Below are positions 34,197 to 60,649 of a stretch of 64,000 bases of DNA, in pieces. Below the pieces are notes generated by a model that was given only the letters and a program-made list of their open reading frames with translations, was not told where the DNA came from and made no database searches. Position numbers and translations under genes: made by a program. Within the stretch, counting starts at the first letter, position 1. Each line of letters opens with the position of its first letter. The DNA is taken from contig NZ_CP119787.1 in NCBI RefSeq assembly GCF_029338255.1, positions 930,001-994,000 on the forward strand, read 5' to 3'. The stretch is from Haloarcula halobia (GTDB lineage: Archaea; Halobacteriota; Halobacteria; Halobacteriales; Haloarculaceae).

Positions 34197-36860
34197 ATGA
34201 CAGCAAACGTCTCCGCAGACATCGAAGCGGTCGTCGAGGACACAGAACTGCCGCGACGGCTGAAAGACGAGGTGTACAGCACCATCGAAGAGCGCGACCT
34301 CGGCGTCGAGGACGCCGACCGCGTCGCACAGGCCGTCGAGTCCCGCTACATGGAGACGCGCGTCGACCCGCTGGACCCCGTCGGTACCGTCTCGGCCCAG
34401 TCCATCGGGGAACCCGGAACGCAGATGTCGATCCCGGGCGACGAACGCGTCGTCGTCCGGCGCAACGGCGAGACCGACCTGACGGAGATCGGCTCGCTGG
34501 TCGACGGACTGCTCTCGGTCCGCGGTGCCCAGCAGTTCGACGACCACGAGGTGGCCCGTGCGCCCGACGGGATGGAGGTTCTCTCGCTCCGCGCCGACGA
34601 GAAGGTCCAGTGGAAGCCCCTCGAGGAAGTCAGTCGGCACGAGGCGCCCGAGGAACTGCTCCACTTCGACCTCGAATCGGGCCGGGACATCCGCGCGACG
34701 AAGGCTCACTCGTTCGTCACGCGCCGTGACAACGAGGTCGTGCCGGTCGCCGGCGAGGACCTCTCTGCGGGTGACTGGATCCCGGTCGTCCGCTCGTTCG
34801 ACGGCGACGGCCCGGACACGGTCGACCTCCGCGAACACCTGCCGGCGGAGGACTACTGGTTCACCTCGGCACTCACCGACGGCGGCACTGCCACGTCACT
34901 CCCCGGTGGGGAAGACCAGGTACGGAACAAGCGGCAAGCGCTCGAGGCGGGCGACATCGAGACGGAGACTGCGTACCCGGTGCAAGGCACGACCGGTCTC
35001 CCCGAGCAGTTCCCGCTCGACGCGGAGACCGGCTTCTTCGTCGGCGCGTTCCTCGCCGAGGGCAACGTCACCGACTACTACGTCTCTGTCTCGAACGTCG
35101 ACGCCGCGTTCCAGGACCGGGTCCGGTCGTTCGCCGACCGGTTCGACCTCTCGGTCAACGAGTACGAGAACGAGAGCGGCTTCACGACGGGCTACGACGT
35201 CCGTGTCAACGGGACGGTCCTGGCCGACTTCCTCCGGGCGGTGTGCTACCACGACGACGAGAAGTGCGTCCCCGCGTTCGCCTTCGGCGCACCGCGGTCC
35301 TTCGCCCGCGGCCTGCTCGAGGGGTACTTCAGCGGCGACGGGAACGTCGCCGACCGCGCCGTCCGGTCGAGTTCGACGTCCGCCCGACTCACCGAGGACG
35401 TCGCGCTGTTGCTGGCCCGCTTCGACCTCTACGCGAGGCTCGGCGAACAGGACAGTTCGCGGACGCTCCGCATCCCCGCGAAATACGTCCCGGCGTTCGC
35501 CGACCGTATCGGTATGGTCGGCGCTCGCGGGGCGGAACTCGACGCCCTCGCGGCGACCGTCGACACCGACGGGCCCGACGCGACCGACCAGATTCCGAAC
35601 TTCGGCGACGACCTGAAGGACGCCGCCGCTGCGGCTGGTATCCCGTCACGGCAGGTCAACAGCGCCCACGACCGCCAGCGAGTCGGACGCAACCGACTGG
35701 CCGGACTGGTCGACCAGATGGCCGCCGCCGACGAGTCCCCGGCCGAACTCGACGCGCTGGAACGAGCACTCGACGGCGACGTCGTCTGGGAGCGCATCGA
35801 GTCGATCGAGGCCGTCGAACCCGACGGCGACTACGTCTACGATTTCTCGGTCGGCGGGCTAGAGACGTTCACCACGGCACAGGGCGTCGTCACCCACAAC
35901 ACGATGAACACGTTCCACTACGCCGGCGTCGCCGAGATCGACGTCACCCAGGGCCTCCCGCGGCTCATCGAACTGGTCGACGCCCGGAAGACCCCGGACA
36001 CGCCGATGATGACTGTCCACCTCGACGACGAGTACGCCACCGACCGCGAGAAGGCCCACGAGGTCGTCTGGAACATCGAGGCCACGCGCATCCTCGCGCT
36101 CGGTGACATCTCGACGAACGTCGCGGACATGCTCGTCGAGATCGACCTCAACGACGACACGCTGCTCGAGCGGTGGCCGACCGTCGACGACGTCGACGCC
36201 ATCGCCGAGGAGATCGCCGAGACCATCGAGTCGAGTCTCGGCGTCGACGCCCGCCAGGTCGGGACTGTCATCGAGTTCGGTCCGGAGGAACCCAGTTACC
36301 GCGACCTCCTGCAACTGGTCGAGGAGCTGCGCGACATCATCTTCAAGGGCATCGAGGAGGTCTCCCGCGTCGTCATCCGCAAGGAGGAGACCGACGACGG
36401 CGAGGAGTTCGTCCTCTACACCGAGGGGTCGGACTTCGGCGAGGTGCTGGGCATCGAGGGCGTCGACGCCTCGCGGACCACGTGTAACAACATCCACGAG
36501 ATCTACCGCGAACTCGGCGTCGAGGCCGCCCGCGAGACGCTCATCAACGAGACGATGAACACCCTCGAAGAACAGGGGCTGGACGACGTGAACGTCCGCC
36601 ACCTGATGCTGGTCGCGGACATCATGACCAACGAGGGGACCATCGAGTCCATCGGCCGCCACGGCATCAGCGGGTCGAAGGACTCGGTGCTCGCCCGCGC
36701 TGCCTTCGAGGTGACGGTCAACCACCTGCTGGACGCCGCCATCCACGGCGAGGTCGACGAGCTGGACGGCGTCACGGAGAACGTCATCGTCGGGAAACCC
36801 ATCAAACTCGGCACCGGAGACGTCGACCTCCGGATGGGCGTGGGTCGCAACGCCGACTGA
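34197..36860 (+). CDS. rpoA2: RNA polymerase subunit A'' with in-frame intein
   Basis: 887 residues encoded, but the mature subunit would be 396. The first 77 residues end SIGEPGTQM, and the extein resumes at [12 protein letters not shown] (569 on), so the intein sits inside the trigger loop, a catalytic element of the polymerase. The rest of A'' (jaw, cleft, C-terminal [14 protein letters not shown]) is intact. The gene is essential, so splicing must work for viable polymerase. Gene end overlaps nusA by one base. Confidence 0.97.
34428..35900 (+). other. Intein in rpoA2 (491 aa, with LAGLIDADG endonuclease)
   Basis: Starts at Ser78 and ends at the C-terminal VVTHN, followed by extein Thr569. 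Splicing blocks: Ser1 nucleophile, block B with TKAH (168-171), block [15 protein letters not shown] and block G VVTHN. Two dodecapeptide endonuclease motifs survive: [11 protein letters not shown] (281-291) and [14 protein letters not shown] (371-384), each retaining its acidic residue, so homing activity is plausible. RpoA'' inteins at this site are known from several haloarchaea. Confidence 0.95.
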
Positions 36861-52079: not shown

Positions 52080-52895
52080 CTACGCGTCGGCAGCGTCGAC
52101 GACCTCGTAGCTGATGTTCCCGTCGGCGAGGTTGTCGGTGTGGCTCGAAACCCGGTCGGTCGCGGCAAGCAGGAGGACGTCGAGTCCCTTCGTGGCCGCT
52201 TCCTGGACTGCGCTGGCGCTGCCAAACCGGACGTCGACCTCGACGGCTGCGGCCCTGGCTGTGGCGAGCGCTTCGACGCCGGCGACGGCGACCAGGTCGT
52301 GTCCACCGGCGAGGTCGGCGATAGTGCCGGGTTCTACCGCACGACTGCCACCGTTCTGGACCTTCGGGACCGAGACCACCGTGACCGTCCCCAGCTCGTA
52401 ATCGACGACGCCCTCGACGTTCGTGATGCCTACCTCGGTGCCAGCCGCAGCCTCCGTGACCGCAACCGCAGTTGCACTCCCAGTCGACCCGGCCATCGCA
52501 CGAAGCACCCCGTCTCGCATCGTCAGGGAGACGGTCTCACCCTCGCTGACGTCTGTCGTCGCGAGGACCGTCTCGACGTCGACCTGTCCGATGACGTCCT
52601 CGGAGACGTGTTGCACGTAGTTCCGGAGGTGGTCGGTCTGTGAGATGAGCCAGTCGACGCCCTCCTTGGTGACCTCGTAGCGACCGCGACCGAGCTTCTC
52701 GACGTGACCGAGTCCGACGAGGTCCTGGAGATAGTTGCTCACCGCCTGCGAGGTGACGCCGATCTCCCCGGCGATCTCCTGTTGACTGACCGCCGGCTGT
52801 CTGTCTGCGATCTCGACCAGGATCTGGTATCTCGTCGCGTCTCGTTTGTTACGGAGGACGCGGAACGTTTCCGCGTCGTCGGGATTCGAGGTCAT
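52080..52895 (-). CDS. HTH regulator beside the cobalamin operon
   Basis: 271 residues: an N-terminal MarR/TrmB-like winged helix (VSQQEIAGEIGVTSQAVSNYLQDLVGLGHVEKLGRGRYEVTKEG, about 34-77), followed by a large alpha/beta domain (about 110-270) without membrane segments, presumably ligand-binding. Its divergent position next to cbiT suggests control of cobalamin synthesis, in response to cobalt or a corrinoid. Its own TATA region is covered by an inverted repeat. Confidence 0.82.
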   Translation of the reverse strand: MTSNPDDAETFRVLRNKRDATRYQILVEIADRQPAVSQQEIAGEIGVTSQAVSNYLQDLVGLGHVEKLGRGRYEVTKEGVDWLISQTDHLRNYVQHVSEDVIGQVDVETVLATTDVSEGETVSLTMRDGVLRAMAGSTGSATAVAVTEAAAGTEVGITNVEGVVDYELGTVTVVSVPKVQNGGSRAVEPGTIADLAGGHDLVAVAGVEALATARAAAVEVDVRFGSASAVQEAATKGLDVLLLAATDRVSSHTDNLADGNISYEVVDAADA

Positions 52896-52914
52896 CGTCC
52901 GATCTCCGGCTCTG

Positions 52915-52940
52915 GAACTAAAATATCTTGTTCCTAGTTC
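52915..52940. promoter_or_regulatory. Inverted repeat over the regulator's promoter
   Basis: GAACTA (52915-52920) and TAGTTC (52935-52940) are exact complements 14 bp apart. The AT-rich spacer includes GATATTTTAG on the minus strand, at TATA distance (about 27 bp) from the regulator start. Typical of autorepression. Confidence 0.55.
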
Positions 52941-52990
52941 TCGTGAATTTTACTCACATCGCGTCGGAACCCGAATTTTAACAATATCAC

Positions 52991-53020
52991 TTTACTTAGC
53001 ACAACCAAAATTGTTTTACG
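52991..53020 (+). promoter_or_regulatory. cbi operon promoter with shared cobalamin-type element
   Basis: TTTTACG (53014-53020) lies 24-30 bp before the cbiT start and is the likely TATA box. Upstream, TTTACTTAGCACAA (52991-53004) resembles the elements at 61710-61723 and 63884-63897 near the other cobalamin genes. Confidence 0.45.
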
Positions 53021-53043
53021 CGCTACCTGAGTTGTGGCCCGTG

Positions 53044-53613
53044 ATGTCACAGGTATCGCTCCCACACGACGCGAAGGCGGGGCCGACGAAGGCAGAGGTC
53101 AGGGCCGTCCTCTGTCAAAAACTCGACCTCGGGCCGACTGACCACTTCGTCGAGGTCGGGTCCTGTACCGGTGCAGTCACCATCGAGGCCGCCAGACGGG
53201 CCGGTCGGGTCACGGCGCTCGAACGGAAGCCCGACCGACTGGCCGTCACGAGAAAGAACCTCGCTGCGAACGACGTGACCGCCGACGTCACGCTCGAGGA
53301 CGCCGAAGCCCCGGCGGGATTACCCGCCGACGCCGACGCCCTCTTCCTGGGTGGTAGTCGGAACTACGAGGCCGTGCTGGACCACGCAGTCGAGACCGGT
53401 ATCGACCGCGTGGTGATGAACGTCTCCCGGCTCGAGGTCGCCGGAGCCGCCACCGAGGCGTTCCGTGACCGGGGTTTGCTCGACGAAGTCGTGCAGGTCC
53501 AGGTGAGCCACGGCTACGAACTCGCCGGGGCGACGAGCTTCGACGCCCAGAACCCGGTGTACGTGCTGGTCGGCGGCACCGACGCGGTGGCGACCGACGG
53601 GGGCCGACGATGA
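53044..53613 (+). CDS. cbiT: Cobalt-precorrin-6B C15-methyltransferase (decarboxylating)
   Basis: 189-residue SAM-dependent methyltransferase of the Rossmann class: VEVGSCTGAVTIEAARR (SAM loop), VTALERKPDRLAVTRKN and FLGGSRNYEAVLD. It methylates C15 and removes the acetate carboxyl of ring C. First gene of a tight operon with 4-bp overlaps. Leaderless start likely. Confidence 0.94.
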   Translation: MSQVSLPHDAKAGPTKAEVRAVLCQKLDLGPTDHFVEVGSCTGAVTIEAARRAGRVTALERKPDRLAVTRKNLAANDVTADVTLEDAEAPAGLPADADALFLGGSRNYEAVLDHAVETGIDRVVMNVSRLEVAGAATEAFRDRGLLDEVVQVQVSHGYELAGATSFDAQNPVYVLVGGTDAVATDGGRR

Positions 53614-54404
53614 CGCTGTACGGCGTCGGACTCGGCCCCGGCGAGGCGGACCTCGTCACGGTCCGTGGCCGCGACGTCCTCGCCGATGCAGACGTCGTCT
53701 ACTCCCCGGGCCGACTCTCCCGGTCGGTCGCGACGAACCACGTTCCCGAAGACCGAATCGGCGACCTCGAGTTCCCGATGACGCGTGACGCCGAGAAACT
53801 CCGGGCGGCGTGGAAGACGGCGGCCGCCGAGATCGCTCCGACCGCACGTGACGGCGACGTGGCGTTCGTCACGCTCGGCGACCCGAACGTCTACTCGACG
53901 TTCGGCCACCTCCGGCGGACGATGGCGGCCTTTCACCCCGAGGTCGACCTCGAGGTCGTCCCCGGCGTCAGTGCGGTCACCGCGTTCGCGACCGCCCTGG
54001 GCGTCGAGATAACTGCCGGGTCGAGTCTCGCCCTGCGCGAGGCCGACGGCGGCGTCTCGCCGACCGGTCCCGACCGGATGGTGTTGTTCAAGGTAACAGA
54101 CGCCCCGGCGACCCACGAGGGGCTGGTCGAGGCCGGCTACGACGTCGTCTACGGGCGGCGGCTGTTCATGGAGCAGGGCGAGACGCTCGTCACGGACGAC
54201 CCAACCGATATCGAAGAGCGCGATTACTACACGCTCGCGTACGCGGAGCGACCCGAGGCACGCGTCGAACAGGCGACCGACGCCTTCCTCGAGTCGGCAG
54301 ATGGGACGGGTGCGATCACCGACGGTGGCGACTATGCCGCTGGGAGGGCGGCCCGGCAGGAACGCTCCGAGGGCGCACTCTGTGGCGACGAGGTGGGACG
54401 ATGA
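53610..54404 (+). CDS. cbiL: Cobalt-factor II C20-methyltransferase
   Basis: 264-residue canonical corrin methyltransferase (type III): LYGVGLGPGEADLVTVRGRDVLADADVV (SAM/substrate loop), VTLGDPNVYSTFGHL and EVVPGVSAVTAFATALG. It adds the C20 methyl group. Overlaps both neighbours by 4 bp. Confidence 0.94.
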   Translation: MTLYGVGLGPGEADLVTVRGRDVLADADVVYSPGRLSRSVATNHVPEDRIGDLEFPMTRDAEKLRAAWKTAAAEIAPTARDGDVAFVTLGDPNVYSTFGHLRRTMAAFHPEVDLEVVPGVSAVTAFATALGVEITAGSSLALREADGGVSPTGPDRMVLFKVTDAPATHEGLVEAGYDVVYGRRLFMEQGETLVTDDPTDIEERDYYTLAYAERPEARVEQATDAFLESADGTGAITDGGDYAAGRAARQERSEGALCGDEVGR

Positions 54405-55273
54405 GCGACGAGCGAGGAGAGACGGACCCACAGACGGCAATCGACGCCGTCGCAGGGAATCGTGACGAACGAGTATACGAACACAGCGCCGGCGACGACC
54501 AGGATGGTATCCCCTTCGTCGGGGCCGGGCCGGGGAACCCGCGACTGCTGACCGTCGCGGGCCGCGACCTGCTGGCCGACGCCGACCTCGTGGTCCACGC
54601 CGGCTCGCTGGTCAACAGTGAACTGCTGGCCGAGTACTGCGAGGACGCCGAGACGGTCAGTTCCATCGGCAAGGACCTCGAGGAACTGATCCCGCTGATG
54701 CGGGACGCGTACGAGCGCGGCGAGACGGTCGTCCGCCTCCACAGCGGCGATCCGGCCATCTACGGCGCGGCCTTAGAACAGATGGACGCGCTCGAACACG
54801 AGGGCGTCCCCACGTACATCGTCCCCGGCGTCACGTCGGCCTTCGCCGCCAGCGCGACGCTACGGACGCAGTTGACGCTGAACGAGGTGGCAAATCACGT
54901 CGCCTTCACCCGCCCCCAGGGGAAGACACTCGACGCGGACGAGGATCACGTCTCAGAGTTCGTGGGGATGGGCGACGTGACGACCTGCATCTATCTCGGT
55001 ACTCACGCCGTCGCCGAGACGATGGAGCGCCTGCTCGATGACGGTCACGACCCGGAGACGCCCGTCGCGGTGGTCTACCACGCCTCGTGGCCCGACGAGG
55101 ACGTCATCGAGGGAACAATCGAGACCATCGGCGAGAAGGTCGAGGACACCGGTTATCGGGCCTCGGCGATGGTGGTCGTCGGCGACGCGGTCGGCGGGGA
55201 GGATTACGAACGCTCGTTCCTGTACGGGGACTGGGCCAGCGGCGACGCGGACTCACAGGAGGCCGACGACTGA
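54401..55273 (+). CDS. cbiF: Cobalt-precorrin-4 C11-methyltransferase
   Basis: 290 residues; after a haloarchaeal N-terminal tail of about 40 residues the type III fold begins: PFVGAGPGNPRLLTVAGRDLLADADLVVHAGSLVN, LHSGDPAIYGA, VPGVTSAFAASATLRTQLTL, CIYLGTHAVAETM. It methylates C11. Its stop shares one base with cbiG. Confidence 0.95.
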   Translation: MSDERGETDPQTAIDAVAGNRDERVYEHSAGDDQDGIPFVGAGPGNPRLLTVAGRDLLADADLVVHAGSLVNSELLAEYCEDAETVSSIGKDLEELIPLMRDAYERGETVVRLHSGDPAIYGAALEQMDALEHEGVPTYIVPGVTSAFAASATLRTQLTLNEVANHVAFTRPQGKTLDADEDHVSEFVGMGDVTTCIYLGTHAVAETMERLLDDGHDPETPVAVVYHASWPDEDVIEGTIETIGEKVEDTGYRASAMVVVGDAVGGEDYERSFLYGDWASGDADSQEADD

Positions 55274-56235
55274 TGAGCACCGACGACAGCGACACGAACA
55301 GTTGCACAGTACCCGATTCCGACGGTGAGGCCGCCGAGGAGATCGCCATCGTCGCGTTCGAGCGGAAGATGGGGACCGCCGCGGAGATCGTCGACGGCAT
55401 CGGCGACCGCTACGCGTCCATCGACGTGCTCGAGTACCACGGCGACGTCTTCGAGGAGTTCTGGGGCGAGTACGACTGTTTCGTCGGCCTGATGGCCAGC
55501 GGCATCGCGATGCGCAAGACCGCCCACCTGCTGGACGACAAGTGGGACGACCCCGCCATCTGCGTCGTCGACGAGGAACTCACGTGGGCAATTCCGATCA
55601 CGGGGGGCCACCACGGCGCGAACCAGGTCGCCGACGATCTGGCGTCGCTTGGCGCGGTCCCGGCGATGACGACAGCGAGCGAGGCGGCCGACAAACAGGG
55701 CGTCGAGAAGCAGGCGAGAGCCCTCGACGCACACGTCGTCAACGGCGACTCGACGGTCGCGACGAACCTCGCGGTGCTGGACGACGAACTCGGTCCAGTC
55801 GAACGACTCGACGGCCCGTCGGCGGTGCTCGTCGACGACGACGTGACGGTCCTGAAACGCAACGGCGCGGACGGCGTCGTCCTGGGTACCGGCAGCGTCG
55901 CCGGCGCGAAGGTCGAACAGTTCCACGACGCGTGGGACGCCGCGCTCGACGACGCAGACTGCGACCGCGAAGACGTCGACTTCGTCGCCACGGGCACCAG
56001 GAAGGCCGACGAAGAGGGGTTGCTCGCCGCCGCCGAGGATTGGGGCCTGGGCGTCGTCGCCTTCGAGAAGGAGACGCTGGAGGAATTCGAGGGCCCGTCG
56101 CCGTCCCGCTCGAAGGAACTCATCGGCTGGCCCGGCATCGCCGAGGCGTCGGCCATCGCCGGCGGGCGTGACCACGACCTGCTGGCCGAGAAGACGCGCT
56201 ACGACGAGGCCGTGACGGTGGCGATCGGCCGATGA
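55273..56235 (+). CDS. cbiG: Cobalt-precorrin-5A hydrolase
   Basis: 320 residues: an N-terminal tail, a CbiG central domain (VFEEFWGEYDCFVGLMASGIAMRKTAHLLDDKWDDPAICVVDE, ITGGHHGANQVADDLA) and the C-terminal alpha/beta domain with GTGSVAGAKVEQF, FVATGTRKADEEGL and SPSRSKELIGWPGIAEASA. It opens the delta-lactone and releases C20 as acetaldehyde. Confidence 0.93.
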   Translation: MSTDDSDTNSCTVPDSDGEAAEEIAIVAFERKMGTAAEIVDGIGDRYASIDVLEYHGDVFEEFWGEYDCFVGLMASGIAMRKTAHLLDDKWDDPAICVVDEELTWAIPITGGHHGANQVADDLASLGAVPAMTTASEAADKQGVEKQARALDAHVVNGDSTVATNLAVLDDELGPVERLDGPSAVLVDDDVTVLKRNGADGVVLGTGSVAGAKVEQFHDAWDAALDDADCDREDVDFVATGTRKADEEGLLAAAEDWGLGVVAFEKETLEEFEGPSPSRSKELIGWPGIAEASAIAGGRDHDLLAEKTRYDEAVTVAIGR

Positions 56236-57155
56236 GCCGGACCGGCGAGAGGGGCGTGGACGGTGCGACGGCGGCCCACCCCGAGGACTACGGGACGCTG
56301 TACGTCGTCGGTATCGGCCCAGGCCTCCCCCACGACATGACCCACCGGGCAAAGGACGTGATTCGGACGGCTGACTGCGTCTTCGCGTCGAACCTCTATC
56401 AGGAGTTCCTCCGGACCGACGGCACGCTCCCGCCGGAATCGGCGGCACTCGACGACGTGTGCGACGACGGTATCGTGACCGACGAGTCGGGGACGGTCCT
56501 CGAACGCCCCGACGGGAGCCGCCAGACGCTCGTCAGGTCCTCGATGGGCAAGCAGGTCGAGCTCGCACGCGAGGCGTTCGAGCGCGTACGGGACGGCCAG
56601 GCCGTCGCCCACGTCTCCGGCGGCGACCCGAACGTCTACGGGAAATCCGACCTCCTGTTCACGATGGCCGACGCCGACGACGCCGACGACGTGCCCATCG
56701 AGATCGTCCCCGGCGTGACCGCCGCCCTCTCGGGGGCGGCGAACCTCGGTGCGCCGCTGTCGAACGACTTCTGTACCGTCTCGCTGTCGGACAAGTGGCG
56801 CGGCTGGGACGAGATCGAGGAGAAGCTCCGGGCGGCCGCCATCAGCGGCTTCGTCGTCGTCCTGTACAACTGCTGGCGGGACTACGAGCGAGCGGTGGCC
56901 ATTCTGCGAGAGGAACGGGCCGACGACGTGCCGGCGGCGATCGTCAACGACGCCGGGCGGGGGACGCTGGGCCGGAACCTCGACGACGAGACGGAGACCA
57001 TCACGACGCTCGGCGAACTGCCGGACCACGCCGACGAAGTCGGCGGCATGGGGTCGTCCATCGTCGTCGGCACCCACGAGACCGAGCACTGGGCGAACGA
57101 CTACCGCGACTTTCTCGTCACCCCGCGTGGCGGGCGTGACGTGGAGGATTTCTGA
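56232..57155 (+). CDS. cbiH: Precorrin-3B/cobalt-factor III C17-methyltransferase, paralogue 1
   Basis: 307-residue type III methyltransferase: LYVVGIGPGLPHDMTHRAKDVIRTADCVFAS, HVSGGDPNVYGKSDLLF, EIVPGVTAALSGAANLGAPLSNDFCTVSLSDKWRGWDEIEEKL. C17 methylation with ring contraction. The cluster has two cbiH-like genes; which one does the reaction, or whether they form a pair, is not clear. Confidence 0.9.
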   Translation: MSRTGERGVDGATAAHPEDYGTLYVVGIGPGLPHDMTHRAKDVIRTADCVFASNLYQEFLRTDGTLPPESAALDDVCDDGIVTDESGTVLERPDGSRQTLVRSSMGKQVELAREAFERVRDGQAVAHVSGGDPNVYGKSDLLFTMADADDADDVPIEIVPGVTAALSGAANLGAPLSNDFCTVSLSDKWRGWDEIEEKLRAAAISGFVVVLYNCWRDYERAVAILREERADDVPAAIVNDAGRGTLGRNLDDETETITTLGELPDHADEVGGMGSSIVVGTHETEHWANDYRDFLVTPRGGRDVEDF

Positions 57156-57157
57156 GC

Positions 57158-58126
57158 ATGCGTACGGACGAGACCACTGAAACGAGTACGGAGCGCGAAT
57201 CGAAATGCGGTGGCGCAACGACCGGAACGGCGGACGAAAACTCGTCAGCGTGTGGCGGGTCGTCGTCGACTGCCACCGGCAGTTCCTGTGGCGGCTCGTC
57301 GACGGAAAGCGGCGAGGCGGACGTCGGCGCCACCGTCGACGACTTCGAGGCCGACCCTGGTCGACTGGTCGCCGTCGGCCTCGGCCCCGGCCAACCGGAG
57401 GGGATGACGGCGAAGGCACGCGCGGCCCTGCTCGAGGCCGACCACATCGTCGGCTACACGACCTACGTCGAACTGCTCCCCGACGAGGTGATTGAGGCCG
57501 CGGAGGACATCTACGACACGCCGATGTGCGGCGAGGTGTCCCGCACGGAGGAGGCGACCGACCGGGCGCTGGCCGGCAACGACGTGGCAATCATCGGCAG
57601 CGGCGACCCGAACGTCTACGCGCTCGCCGGACTGGCACTGGAGATACTCGAGTCCAAGGGCGCGACCGCCTCGATGCTTGCGTTCGACGTCGTCCCCGGC
57701 GTCCCCGCCGCCCAGTCGTGTGCGGCCCGCGTCGGCGCGCCGCTGGTCAACGACACCGTCTCCATCTCGCTGTCGGACCACCTCACGGACATGCCGACCA
57801 TCGAGTCCCGGTTGCACGCCACGGCCAAGGAGGGGTTCACCATCGCCATCTACAACCCCTGGAGTCGCAAGCGCCGGGACAACTACGCGAAGTGCTGCGA
57901 GATTCTGCTCGAACACCGCGACCCTGAGACGCCGGTCGGCGTGGTACACGCCGCGGGTCGCGAGGACGAGCGCGTCGAGATCGTCGAACTGGGCGATCTG
58001 CCCGACCTGGGCGAGACCGACCTCGTCGACATGACGACGACGCTGCTCGTGGGCAACGAGGAGACCTACGTCTGGGACGACCGGATGGTCACGCCGCGTG
58101 GCTACGAGACGAAGTACGACTACTGA
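57158..58126 (+). CDS. cbiH: Precorrin-3B C17-methyltransferase, paralogue 2, with Cys-rich N-terminal tail
   Basis: 322 residues. The methyltransferase core (RLVAVGLGPGQPEGMTAKARAALLEADHIVGYTTYVELLP, IGSGDPNVYALAGLALE, FDVVPGVPAAQSCAARVGAPLVNDTVSISLSDHLTDM) is the CbiH/CobJ type. Before it lies a low-complexity tail of about 60 residues with three CGG motifs at Cys17, Cys32 and Cys44 in Ser/Thr/Gly. Such a tail is not part of the normal family; it may bind metal or a cluster and may work with the ferredoxin gene next to it. Confidence 0.9.
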   Translation: MRTDETTETSTERESKCGGATTGTADENSSACGGSSSTATGSSCGGSSTESGEADVGATVDDFEADPGRLVAVGLGPGQPEGMTAKARAALLEADHIVGYTTYVELLPDEVIEAAEDIYDTPMCGEVSRTEEATDRALAGNDVAIIGSGDPNVYALAGLALEILESKGATASMLAFDVVPGVPAAQSCAARVGAPLVNDTVSISLSDHLTDMPTIESRLHATAKEGFTIAIYNPWSRKRRDNYAKCCEILLEHRDPETPVGVVHAAGREDERVEIVELGDLPDLGETDLVDMTTTLLVGNEETYVWDDRMVTPRGYETKYDY

Positions 58127-58128
58127 CC

Positions 58129-58377
58129 ATGTACCGGATCACACTCGACAGAGCGACCTGTGACGGTGTCTTCGCCTGTCTCGTGCGCGACGACCGGTTC
58201 GTCGAGGACGGCGACGGCCTCGCGGCCATCGAGGTCGACGACGAGCGGACCGTGGCGGCGACGTTCGACGACGACCGACGGGACGACGCCGCGTCGGCGG
58301 CCGCGGCCTGTCCACTCGATGCGATTACCGTCGAGGATGTCTCCCCGGCGGCCGACCGTACGGAGGGCGAGCCATGA
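58129..58377 (+). CDS. Single-cluster ferredoxin ([3Fe-4S] type)
   Basis: 82 residues with Cys11 and Cys17 (ATCDGVFACLV, C-x5-C) and Cys61-Pro (AACPLDAITVED). This three-cysteine pattern is that of [3Fe-4S] ferredoxins that serve as electron donors. The rest is acidic. It lies inside the cobalamin operon between cbiH and the LAGLIDADG-like gene (2-bp gap, then 4-bp overlap) and probably supplies electrons for a reductive step. Confidence 0.82.
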   Translation: MYRITLDRATCDGVFACLVRDDRFVEDGDGLAAIEVDDERTVAATFDDDRRDDAASAAAACPLDAITVEDVSPAADRTEGEP

Positions 58378-59033
58378 GCGTCGACACCGACGCGCCGGGG
58401 GACATGCTCGCGGCCCACCCGGAGACGGCGTACTTCTGGGGGCGGGTCGCTGGCGACGGCGAGTGCGACGAGCACTGTGTCACCGTCCGGACGACCGACG
58501 AGATCGCTGCCAGGCGACTCGCGTCGATCGCCGGTGCCGACCGGACCGGCCATCGCACCGTCGAGCGGGCCTACGCGCACGACACGTCCATCGTCCGAAC
58601 AGACGACGAGTACACGCTCCAGGTGTTCGGTGACCTCGCGGACCGGGCGGGGGCCGCGCTCGGCCTGCCCTTCGCGGGCGAGGCCGGCGGCTACCGCTTC
58701 GAGACGCTCGCCGAATACGACCGCCAACTCCTGCGGGGCCTCCTCGAAGCCTGTGGGACAGTCTGTTTCAAATCCGACGCGGATGTCGTCGGCGTCTCGT
58801 TCGTCCACGCGGACCGGCGGCTCCTGCGGACGGTCCAGTCGCTGCTGGCGGCGTGTCCCGTCGACGTCCCGTGTGGGGACTGTTCCGAGGCGTCCTCGGG
58901 CTACTGGTTCGGCGTCGACGACGACGCCGTCCCGGCGCTGGGCGACTGGCTGTACGACGGCAGCGAGGCCACCGGGTTGTTCGCACCGAGTCGGCGGCGG
59001 AAACTCCGGAAGAGCCTCGAACGAGTCCGATGA
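58374..59033 (+). CDS. LAGLIDADG-like protein within the cobalamin operon
   Basis: 219 residues with a two-repeat architecture like monomeric LAGLIDADG homing endonucleases. Motif 1 FWGRVAGDGEC (about 21-31) keeps the catalytic Asp, while motif 2 LLRGLLEACGTV (about 121-132) has Cys in place of the second catalytic acid. Conserved-looking repeat tails (VTVRTTDEIAARRLASI; VHADRRLLRTVQSLL) and the closing WLYDGSEATGLFAPSRRRKLRKSL resemble the WLY...RK end of the family. Overlaps both neighbours by 4 bp, so it is an integral operon member, not an insertion. Function unknown; family call is by motif only. Confidence 0.68.
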   Translation: MSVDTDAPGDMLAAHPETAYFWGRVAGDGECDEHCVTVRTTDEIAARRLASIAGADRTGHRTVERAYAHDTSIVRTDDEYTLQVFGDLADRAGAALGLPFAGEAGGYRFETLAEYDRQLLRGLLEACGTVCFKSDADVVGVSFVHADRRLLRTVQSLLAACPVDVPCGDCSEASSGYWFGVDDDAVPALGDWLYDGSEATGLFAPSRRRKLRKSLERVR

Positions 59034-60253
59034 GCGAAGCCACCACAGCCACGGAGACGCTCGACGACGAGGCCATCCTGCTCGCCGGGCACGGCTCGCG
59101 CCGCGAGAAGTCCAACGAGCAGGTCCGACAGCTGGCGGCCGACCTGGAGCGTCGCCTCGGTATCCCGGTCGACGCCGCCTTCCTCGAACTCGCCGACCCG
59201 GCCATCGACGACGCCATCGCCGGCCTCGCGGCCACCGTCTCCCAGGTGACCGTCGTCCACCTCTCACTGTTTGCCGCGAGCCACGTCAAAAACGACGTGC
59301 CGCTGGCGGTCACGCAGGCCCGTGAGGCCCACCCCGACCTGACGATCAACAACGGCGCTCACCTGGGCGTCCACCCGGCACTTCTCGACCTGCTGGACGA
59401 CCGGGCGGCGGCCGTCGAGGCCGAACTGGGTGTCGACCGTGAGGGCGACGACGTGGCCGTCGTCCTCTGTGCGCGCGGGTCGTCGGACCCGGACGCCAAC
59501 GCGGACGTCCACAAACTCGCACGCCTGCTGTACGAGGGGCGCACGTTCGAGCGGGTCCGTGCCTCGTTCGTCGGCGTCACCGACCCCCGCCTGGAAGACA
59601 CGCTCCACGACCTCGCGAAGGGGCGGCCCGACGCCGTCGTCGTCCTCCCCTACATGCTCGGTGACGGCGTCCTGACCGGTCGTATCAGAGACGGGGCCCG
59701 GGAGTTCGACGCGGAGTACCCCTACGTCGACGCCGCGCCGGGTGACCCGCTCGGCACCGACAGCCGCCTGCTCGACGTGCTCGGCGACCGGTGGCAGGAG
59801 GCCCGGACGGGCAGCGTCGAGATGTCCTGTGACACCTGCAAGTACAAGGTCGAACTGGACGGCTACGAAAACGACCGGGGTGGCGCGCGGGCCATGCTCC
59901 GGGCGCTGACCCACCAGGCCGAACACGCCGACCGCGAGGACGTCGACGACGACCCGCACGTCCACGACGCACCGGAAAAGCACGTCGCCGTCTGTACGAA
60001 CCAGACCTGCGCACAGGACGGCGCACCCGCGGTCCTCGAACGGCTCCGACAGGCCGCCCGCGACAGCGACCAGTGTGACGCCCGCATCACGCGGTCGTCC
60101 TGTCTGGGCCGCTGTGGCGAGGGCCCGATGGTCGCGGTCTATCCCGACGGCGTCTGGTACGGCGGCGTCGGGGCCGACGACGCCGACGGCATCGTCTCGT
60201 CGCACCTCGACCGCGACCGCATCGTGAGCGAACTGGTCGACCAAACGCTCTAA
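59030..60253 (+). CDS. cbiX: Sirohydrochlorin cobaltochelatase with C-terminal Fe-S domain
   Basis: 407 residues: two tandem CbiX-type chelatase halves (first with LLAGHGSRREKSNEQV and catalytic His in FAASHVKND, His85; second with VVLCARGSSDPDANADV), then a spacer with Cys267-x2-Cys270, and a C-terminal thioredoxin-like [2Fe-2S] ferredoxin domain (Cys322, Cys327, Cys358, Cys362: VCTNQTCAQ and SSCLGRCGEGP). It inserts Co2+ into sirohydrochlorin for the early-cobalt pathway. The Fe-S domain's role is unknown. Confidence 0.9.
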   Translation: MSEATTATETLDDEAILLAGHGSRREKSNEQVRQLAADLERRLGIPVDAAFLELADPAIDDAIAGLAATVSQVTVVHLSLFAASHVKNDVPLAVTQAREAHPDLTINNGAHLGVHPALLDLLDDRAAAVEAELGVDREGDDVAVVLCARGSSDPDANADVHKLARLLYEGRTFERVRASFVGVTDPRLEDTLHDLAKGRPDAVVVLPYMLGDGVLTGRIRDGAREFDAEYPYVDAAPGDPLGTDSRLLDVLGDRWQEARTGSVEMSCDTCKYKVELDGYENDRGGARAMLRALTHQAEHADREDVDDDPHVHDAPEKHVAVCTNQTCAQDGAPAVLERLRQAARDSDQCDARITRSSCLGRCGEGPMVAVYPDGVWYGGVGADDADGIVSSHLDRDRIVSELVDQTL

Positions 60254-60277: not shown

Positions 60278-60649
60278 ATGAGCTGTTACGAAATCGAGGC
60301 CCTCAAACTGGGCCTCATGAACGTCCTCGGCACCGAAGACGAACAGGCGCGAAAGCACGCCCAGCAGGAGCTGGAGGGGAACCTGACGGGGCCGATCGAG
60401 GGCCTGGCCGACGCCCAGACGCTCGTCGCCATCGAACGCCACCTCGACGCGGCGCTCGTCGACCTCGAAGAGCAGATTGCCAGGACAGACGCCGACGACC
60501 CCGAGTACGACTACCTGCGGGGACGGCTGGTCGCCGTTCGTGACGCCGAGCGAGCGGTCTCGCGACTGACGACACAGGGGGAAGACGTCCTCGCCGGTCT
60601 CGGCGAGGCCCACGACCTCCTCCACGAGGCGTTCCCGGTCGACGGGTGA
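60278..60649 (+). CDS. DUF3209 family protein
   Basis: 123 residues, all-helical and acidic: MSCYEIEALKLGLMNVLGTEDEQARKHAQQELEGN, then LDAALVDLEEQIARTDADDPEYDYLRGRLVAVRDAERAVSRL. DUF3209 is repeatedly found in haloarchaeal cobalamin clusters and has no known activity. It follows cbiX after 24 bp, as the last gene of the operon. Confidence 0.85.
   Translation: MSCYEIEALKLGLMNVLGTEDEQARKHAQQELEGNLTGPIEGLADAQTLVAIERHLDAALVDLEEQIARTDADDPEYDYLRGRLVAVRDAERAVSRLTTQGEDVLAGLGEAHDLLHEAFPVDG

Follow-up and report, generated by a model that had tools for sequence, protein, structure and literature searches.

A LAGLIDADG-like gene in a cobalamin operon

What is a LAGLIDADG-like protein doing in the middle of a haloarchaeal cobalamin operon? 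The question is posed by a gene of Haloarcula halobia in the window analysed here, a continuous stretch of 64,000 nucleotides from contig NZ_CP119787.1. The gene occupies positions 58374–59033 of the forward strand, from the ATG at 58374 to a TGA ending at 59033, and encodes 219 amino acids. LAG is used below for this LAGLIDADG-like gene and protein family of the haloarchaeal cobalamin operon. Upstream on the same strand lie cbiT-cbiL-cbiF-cbiG-cbiH1-cbiH2 (53044–58126, cbiT starting at 53044) and the gene of a single-cluster ferredoxin (Fer4_15, 58129–58377). Downstream follow cbiX (59030–60253), encoding a cobalt chelatase with an MSCDTC motif and a C-terminal thioredoxin-like [2Fe-2S] domain, and a DUF3209 gene (60278–60649), both also on the forward strand.

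The features that first drew attention to the gene are all present. Two LAGLIDADG-like motifs had been described, a GDG in the first and a cysteine at the aspartate site of the second: motif 1 is YFWGRVAGDGEC, with GDG at residues 27–29, and motif 2 is LLRGLLEACGTVC, with ACG at residues 126–128. The C-terminal end of WLY...RK type is found as WLYDGSEATGLFAPSRRRK, and the 4-bp overlaps with both neighbours, the ferredoxin gene and cbiX, are real ATGA overlaps. By alignment and profile match, a first LAGLIDADG domain covers residues 16–100 (58419–58673) and a second residues 116–219 (58719–59030). Elsewhere in the window, the gene for RNA polymerase subunit A'' (34197–36860) holds an intein (about 34437–35900) with two LAGLIDADG_3 domains.

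Distribution and inheritance

Within one type of cobalt-early B12 operon of haloarchaea, LAG holds a constant place and is translated together with its neighbours. Among 292 haloarchaeal (Halobacteria) genomes, LAG occurs in 146 and CbiG in 151. All 146 LAG genomes carry CbiG, and none of the 141 CbiG-negative genomes has LAG; this association was assessed by a Fisher test, which ignores the relatedness of the genomes. Such an occurrence, together with purifying selection (median pairwise pN/pS 0.155 among Haloarcula-type genomes), makes LAG more than a product of chance. The protein evolves faster than the operon enzymes, with a mean pairwise identity of 58.5% against 71–80%. Its evolutionary distances track those of cbiH1 (r=0.89), cbiG (0.83) and the ferredoxin (0.81). 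Beyond the haloarchaea, a phylum sample of 345 genomes gave no convincing match; plasmid matches were haloarchaeal only, and the viral contigs and phages searched contained no relatives. A search of the operon for RNA families, cobalamin riboswitches included, found none.

Wherever enough sequence was read, the gene order cbiT-L-F-G-H1-H2-ferredoxin-LAG-cbiX-DUF3209 is kept, and LAG stands between the ferredoxin gene and cbiX in all LAG-positive loci read. The exception on both counts is genome G021, in which a divergent, solitary copy (locus L040, 6826–7422) lies away from the cbi cluster. This copy retains both cysteines discussed below and His69. Its neighbours are a rhodanese-like gene and two cation-efflux-like genes.

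Membership of the LAGLIDADG superfamily

Two short motifs may resemble a known family by chance, and LAG might then be no LAGLIDADG protein at all. Some results would fit such a view: the window protein taken alone matches Pfam LAGLIDADG_3 (PF14528) at an E-value of 0.0035 (18 bits), short of the curated threshold, and a profile search of PDB sequences gave chance matches only and no LAGLIDADG chain, so sequence alone fails to reach solved structures. Chance likeness is nevertheless very improbable, as both halves match independently and with large margins over controls. In hhalign comparisons with a haloarchaeal intein LAGLIDADG_3 profile, the N and C halves each scored about 87% when aligned separately. 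The corresponding values in 40 column shuffles were at most 1.0% and 2.8%, and those of reversed controls 0.2% and 2.9%. This domain-profile comparison supersedes runs against single intein sequences, which gave 58% for the rpoA2 intein and 0.4% for another. A HMMER profile built from 30 intein LAGLIDADG domains of related genomes matched the C-terminal half with up to 19.8 bits; 6,900 shuffled sequences reached 7.5 bits at most. PF14528 matches 27 of 48 family members (E<=1, best 2.7e-5). Eleven members also match a phage endonuclease family (best 1.6e-5). An NCBIfam search with 48 members gave no match.

Structural comparison agrees, within the limits of a poor model. The AlphaFold2 model, computed from nine closely related sequences, reached a pLDDT of 49, a weakness that would also suit a chance resemblance; the helix and strand order in it is that of two LAGLIDADG domains, each of the alpha-beta-beta-alpha-beta-beta-alpha type. 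Foldseek places LAGLIDADG proteins in all of the first 34 ranks (among them I-DmoI, PI-PfuI, WhiA and I-Tsp061I), with I-DmoI first and WhiA 31st, at low TM-scores of about 0.25–0.36 for the best matches. Comparison of profiles and structures with LAGLIDADG families, proposed in the initial annotation, has thus come out in favour of the assignment. Membership of the superfamily is well supported for both halves, so that the gene encodes a monomer built of two such domains, and the atomic fold is predicted with low confidence.

Loss of the catalytic acids

The active site was compared in 69 sequences of the LAG family. (i) At the acid position of motif 2, residue 127 (58752–58754), cysteine replaces the catalytic aspartate in all 69. 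(ii) A second cysteine, Cys131 (58764–58766), follows four residues later, also in 69 of 69, so that a CGTxC motif is formed. (iii) The former catalytic position of domain 1, Asp28 in the window (58455–58457), varies: aspartate in 38 sequences, serine in 17, alanine in six, asparagine in four and glycine in four. Further invariant residues include W22, G23, H69, R121, E125, G128, S142, S175, F179, Y194, R207 and K210. Cutting by LAGLIDADG enzymes is not known to proceed once these acids are gone. Because position 127 is always cysteine and position 28 is variable, LAG homologues cannot be standard nucleases. As judged from the alignment, both catalytic acids are dispensable in this family; what it conserves is the pair of cysteines.

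The initial annotation had spoken of one lost catalytic acid. This describes the window sequence correctly and is too mild for the family, which is dead at both sites. Conservation of the cysteine in the same operons, set beforehand as a check, is complete in the 69 sequences. The proposal of a domesticated, non-cutting relative has also held: the acids are lost, the gene is fixed in the operon and inherited with it, and no intein or intron adjoins it.

An opposite view would make LAG an active or recently active homing endonuclease, a parasite of the operon. LAG does have the LAGLIDADG fold, and the genome bears LAGLIDADG inteins elsewhere, including the one in rpoA2 within the window. Active homing endonucleases are recognized by an acidic residue that ends each LAGLIDADG helix and by an intron, an intein or a patchy mobile distribution. 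LAG has invariant cysteine at the second catalytic position, shows no patchy insertion and no surrounding intron or intein, and has a fixed operon position; it is present in 146 of the 151 genomes with cbi genes, and its distances resemble those of neighbour genes. The probability of the parasite view is therefore practically negligible. We infer that LAG originated from a homing endonuclease.

Two types of operon

DUF3209 is present in 146 of 146 LAG-positive genomes and gave three further matches: one real (G052), one a fragment (G254) and one below the cut-off (G269). CbiX of LAG-positive operons has the C-terminal thioredoxin-like [2Fe-2S] domain. Only five CbiG-positive genomes are without LAG (G001, G007, G052, G129 and G269). 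Four of these (G001, G007, G129 and G269) have a compact operon without LAG, ferredoxin and DUF3209, and the tail of their CbiX is His-rich. The fifth, G052 (locus L125), lacks LAG and retains the ferredoxin, the long CbiX and DUF3209. An extra His-rich CbiX (L125, 9703–10644) takes exactly the place of LAG there, between the ferredoxin gene and the long cbiX, and has a 4-bp overlap with the former; this replacement is a single case.

A tree built from CbiG, CbiH1 and CbiH2 places LAG-positive and LAG-negative operons on opposite sides of one split (support 0.82). The hosts on the two sides come from shared families, and LAG is therefore a feature of an operon type. Loci L122, L123, L124 and L126 are compact cbiT-L-F-G-H1-H2-cbiX operons, and no CbiD or CbiJ family member is above threshold in these genomes. 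Outside the archaea, Leptospira (L139, NZ_CP020413.2) has a CbiX-DUF3209 pair, after which come an FAD-dependent oxidoreductase and CbiD; no LAGLIDADG protein is annotated beside them. LAG is therefore not needed by every chelatase of this kind.

A possible missing enzyme of the pathway

Two steps of the pathway are without their usual enzymes: a search of 145 haloarchaea found neither CbiD nor CbiJ in any of them. LAG could then supply the missing activity, either the cobalt-precorrin C1-methyltransferase (CbiD) or the precorrin-6A reductase (CbiJ). PMC8305020 includes its Haloferax counterpart HVO_B0055 in a list of four proteins that might close the two gaps, and LAG has invariant polar, cysteine and aromatic residues. 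The LAG-less cbi-positive genomes speak against this role: G001, G007, G052, G129 and G269 are also without CbiD and CbiJ, with sub-threshold matches only in the case of CbiJ. The gap is present with or without LAG, which therefore cannot be its general solution. Every operon also encodes CbiH1, the protein put forward in the literature for the C1 step. LAG matched no nucleotide or SAM family, and neither the window protein nor 48 members matched the Pfam families of CbiD (PF01888) and CbiJ (PF02571). An enzymatic role in these steps is improbable.

A possible regulator of the operon

LAGLIDADG proteins bind DNA. A nuclease-dead member of the family could control the cbi operon by binding DNA, possibly at a near-invariant element before cbiT. 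This element, CAACCAAAATTGTTTTA, lies at 53002–53018 of the forward strand, inside the mechanical reading frame 52846–53613 and upstream of the cbiT start at 53044. Its outer arms are CACAAC and GTTGTG, and its 8-mer AAACAATT occurs at 21 of 23 loci, a number that never exceeded five in shuffled controls. The element may be an operator of a cobalamin regulon, a core promoter or both. With changes, it persists before cbiT in the four genomes with compact LAG-less operons and in G052, and versions are also found near the ChlID gene. The protein that reads CAACCAAAATTGTTTTA therefore need not be LAG. As a LAG operator, the element had strong support at first, and this weakened once it was found in LAG-less operons. 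A MarR-type HTH gene with DUF7839 (52080–52895, minus strand) is divergent from cbiT. Such a gene is found in this arrangement in the window and at five other loci, thus at some and not all cbi loci.

Several points suit a regulator. DNA binding is common to LAGLIDADG proteins and WhiA offers a precedent (PMC3781837), the element with its CACAAC/GTTGTG arms is near-invariant upstream of cbiT in LAG-positive genomes, and basic residues of LAG are conserved (R65, R75, R108, R121, R207, R208 and K210). They are opposed by the persistence of CAACCAAAATTGTTTTA in operons without LAG, by the possibility that part of it is core promoter, and by the MarR-type regulator gene divergent from cbiT. The DNA-binding HTH of WhiA is absent: Pfam and NCBIfam gave no HTH or WhiA match for 48 members. 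LAG proteins, at -0.093 per residue, are also more acidic than the LAGLIDADG domains of inteins, at -0.023, and the gene is buried in mid-operon with coupled translation. Regulation of the operon by LAG thus appears unlikely, though it deserves more credit than an enzymatic role.

A proposed partner in cobalt insertion

The initial annotation left open whether LAG is a DNA-binding regulator or a partner of the pathway; the evidence leans to the partner. The reasons are translational coupling, the tie to an operon type with ferredoxin, a CbiX with a [2Fe-2S] tail and DUF3209, the lack of an HTH, the more acidic protein, and the cis element kept in operons without LAG. The best explanation makes LAG a domesticated protein that no longer cuts DNA and assists the cobalt-insertion/Fe-S module as a partner; we favour it tentatively, as one that may well be right without being assured. 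Cys127, Cys131 and His69 are invariant and LAG is linked to one operon type, observations that bear on a putative metal or Fe-S role.

A possible course of events is as follows. (i) A homing endonuclease ancestor would have been domesticated and would no longer cut DNA. (ii) Its descendant would take part, alongside other proteins, in the cobalt-insertion/Fe-S step. (iii) The old DNA-binding saddle, or the CGTxC motif with His69, might bind the ferredoxin, the Fe-S tail of CbiX or metal. (iv) Such binding would help to load, deliver or redox-gate cobalt. (v) In operons without LAG, the His-rich tail of CbiX would do the same job. In Bacillus CbiXL, a His-rich/Fe-S tail is proposed to function in metal storage and delivery (PMC7689651). 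The simplest reading of the operon types would be that the LAG set takes over the accessory role of a CbiXL-type tail. The putative partner role, and with it the supposed binding of metal or an Fe-S protein, is weakened by the small number of LAG-less CbiG-positive genomes (five), the single His-rich replacement, the Leptospira genes, the unlinked copy in G021, the weak model and an association test that ignores relatedness. In a bolder form, the LAGLIDADG fold would have left nucleic acids altogether and, bearing the CGTxC motif, would bind cobalt or an Fe-S partner during cobalt insertion. This is conceivable, though less likely than not.

Comparison with known systems

The haloarchaeal intein homing endonucleases (PF14528) and I-DmoI share the two-domain fold predicted for LAG by its weak model. 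Unlike these, LAG has no acid pair, splicing domain or intron; its operon position is fixed and it is more acidic. A closer likeness is provided by WhiA (DUF199), whose N-terminal domain also consists of two LAGLIDADG domains that have lost their catalytic residues in a domesticated, broadly conserved host gene. WhiA works with the Fe-S protein WhiB, which is counted as a further likeness. The differences are equally clear. WhiA binds DNA with a C-terminal HTH (PMC3781837), whereas LAG ends at the second LAGLIDADG domain. WhiA is a bacterial regulator and LAG a gene of a haloarchaeal metabolic operon, and in LAG the second catalytic aspartate is an invariant cysteine.

CbiXL of Bacillus megaterium shares the MxCxxC motif with haloarchaeal CbiX, and its His-rich/Fe-S tail is an accessory to an early cobalt chelatase (PMC7689651), a role proposed here for LAG. 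That tail belongs to the chelatase itself, whereas LAG is a LAGLIDADG protein in its own right. In the haloarchaea whose operons were read, a His-rich CbiX tail occurs only in operons without LAG. These natural operon types (with ferredoxin, LAGLIDADG protein and DUF3209, without them, and with one His-rich swap) yield a hypothesis for the route of cobalt to the early chelatase.

The counterpart by position of LAG in the Haloferax cobalamin cluster, HVO_B0055, belongs to the same gene family and has the same place. It is given as 'function unassigned' in the main text of PMC8305020, which does not mention LAGLIDADG for this protein. NCBI annotates family members as 'cobalamin biosynthesis protein' or 'hypothetical protein', and no paper among those searched joins LAGLIDADG with cobalamin biosynthesis. 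The family is therefore known as an unassigned protein of the cobalamin cluster; new are its identity as a nuclease-dead LAGLIDADG protein, the lack of an HTH, the invariant cysteine and the biosynthetic operon. Of the four proteins without assignment in the B12 cluster of haloarchaea, one has thereby gained an identity, and its role is testable in a tractable archaeon. After WhiA, LAG is the second large case of a homing endonuclease fold turned host gene, and the first such case that we found in a metabolic operon, with a catalytic acid exchanged for an invariant cysteine.
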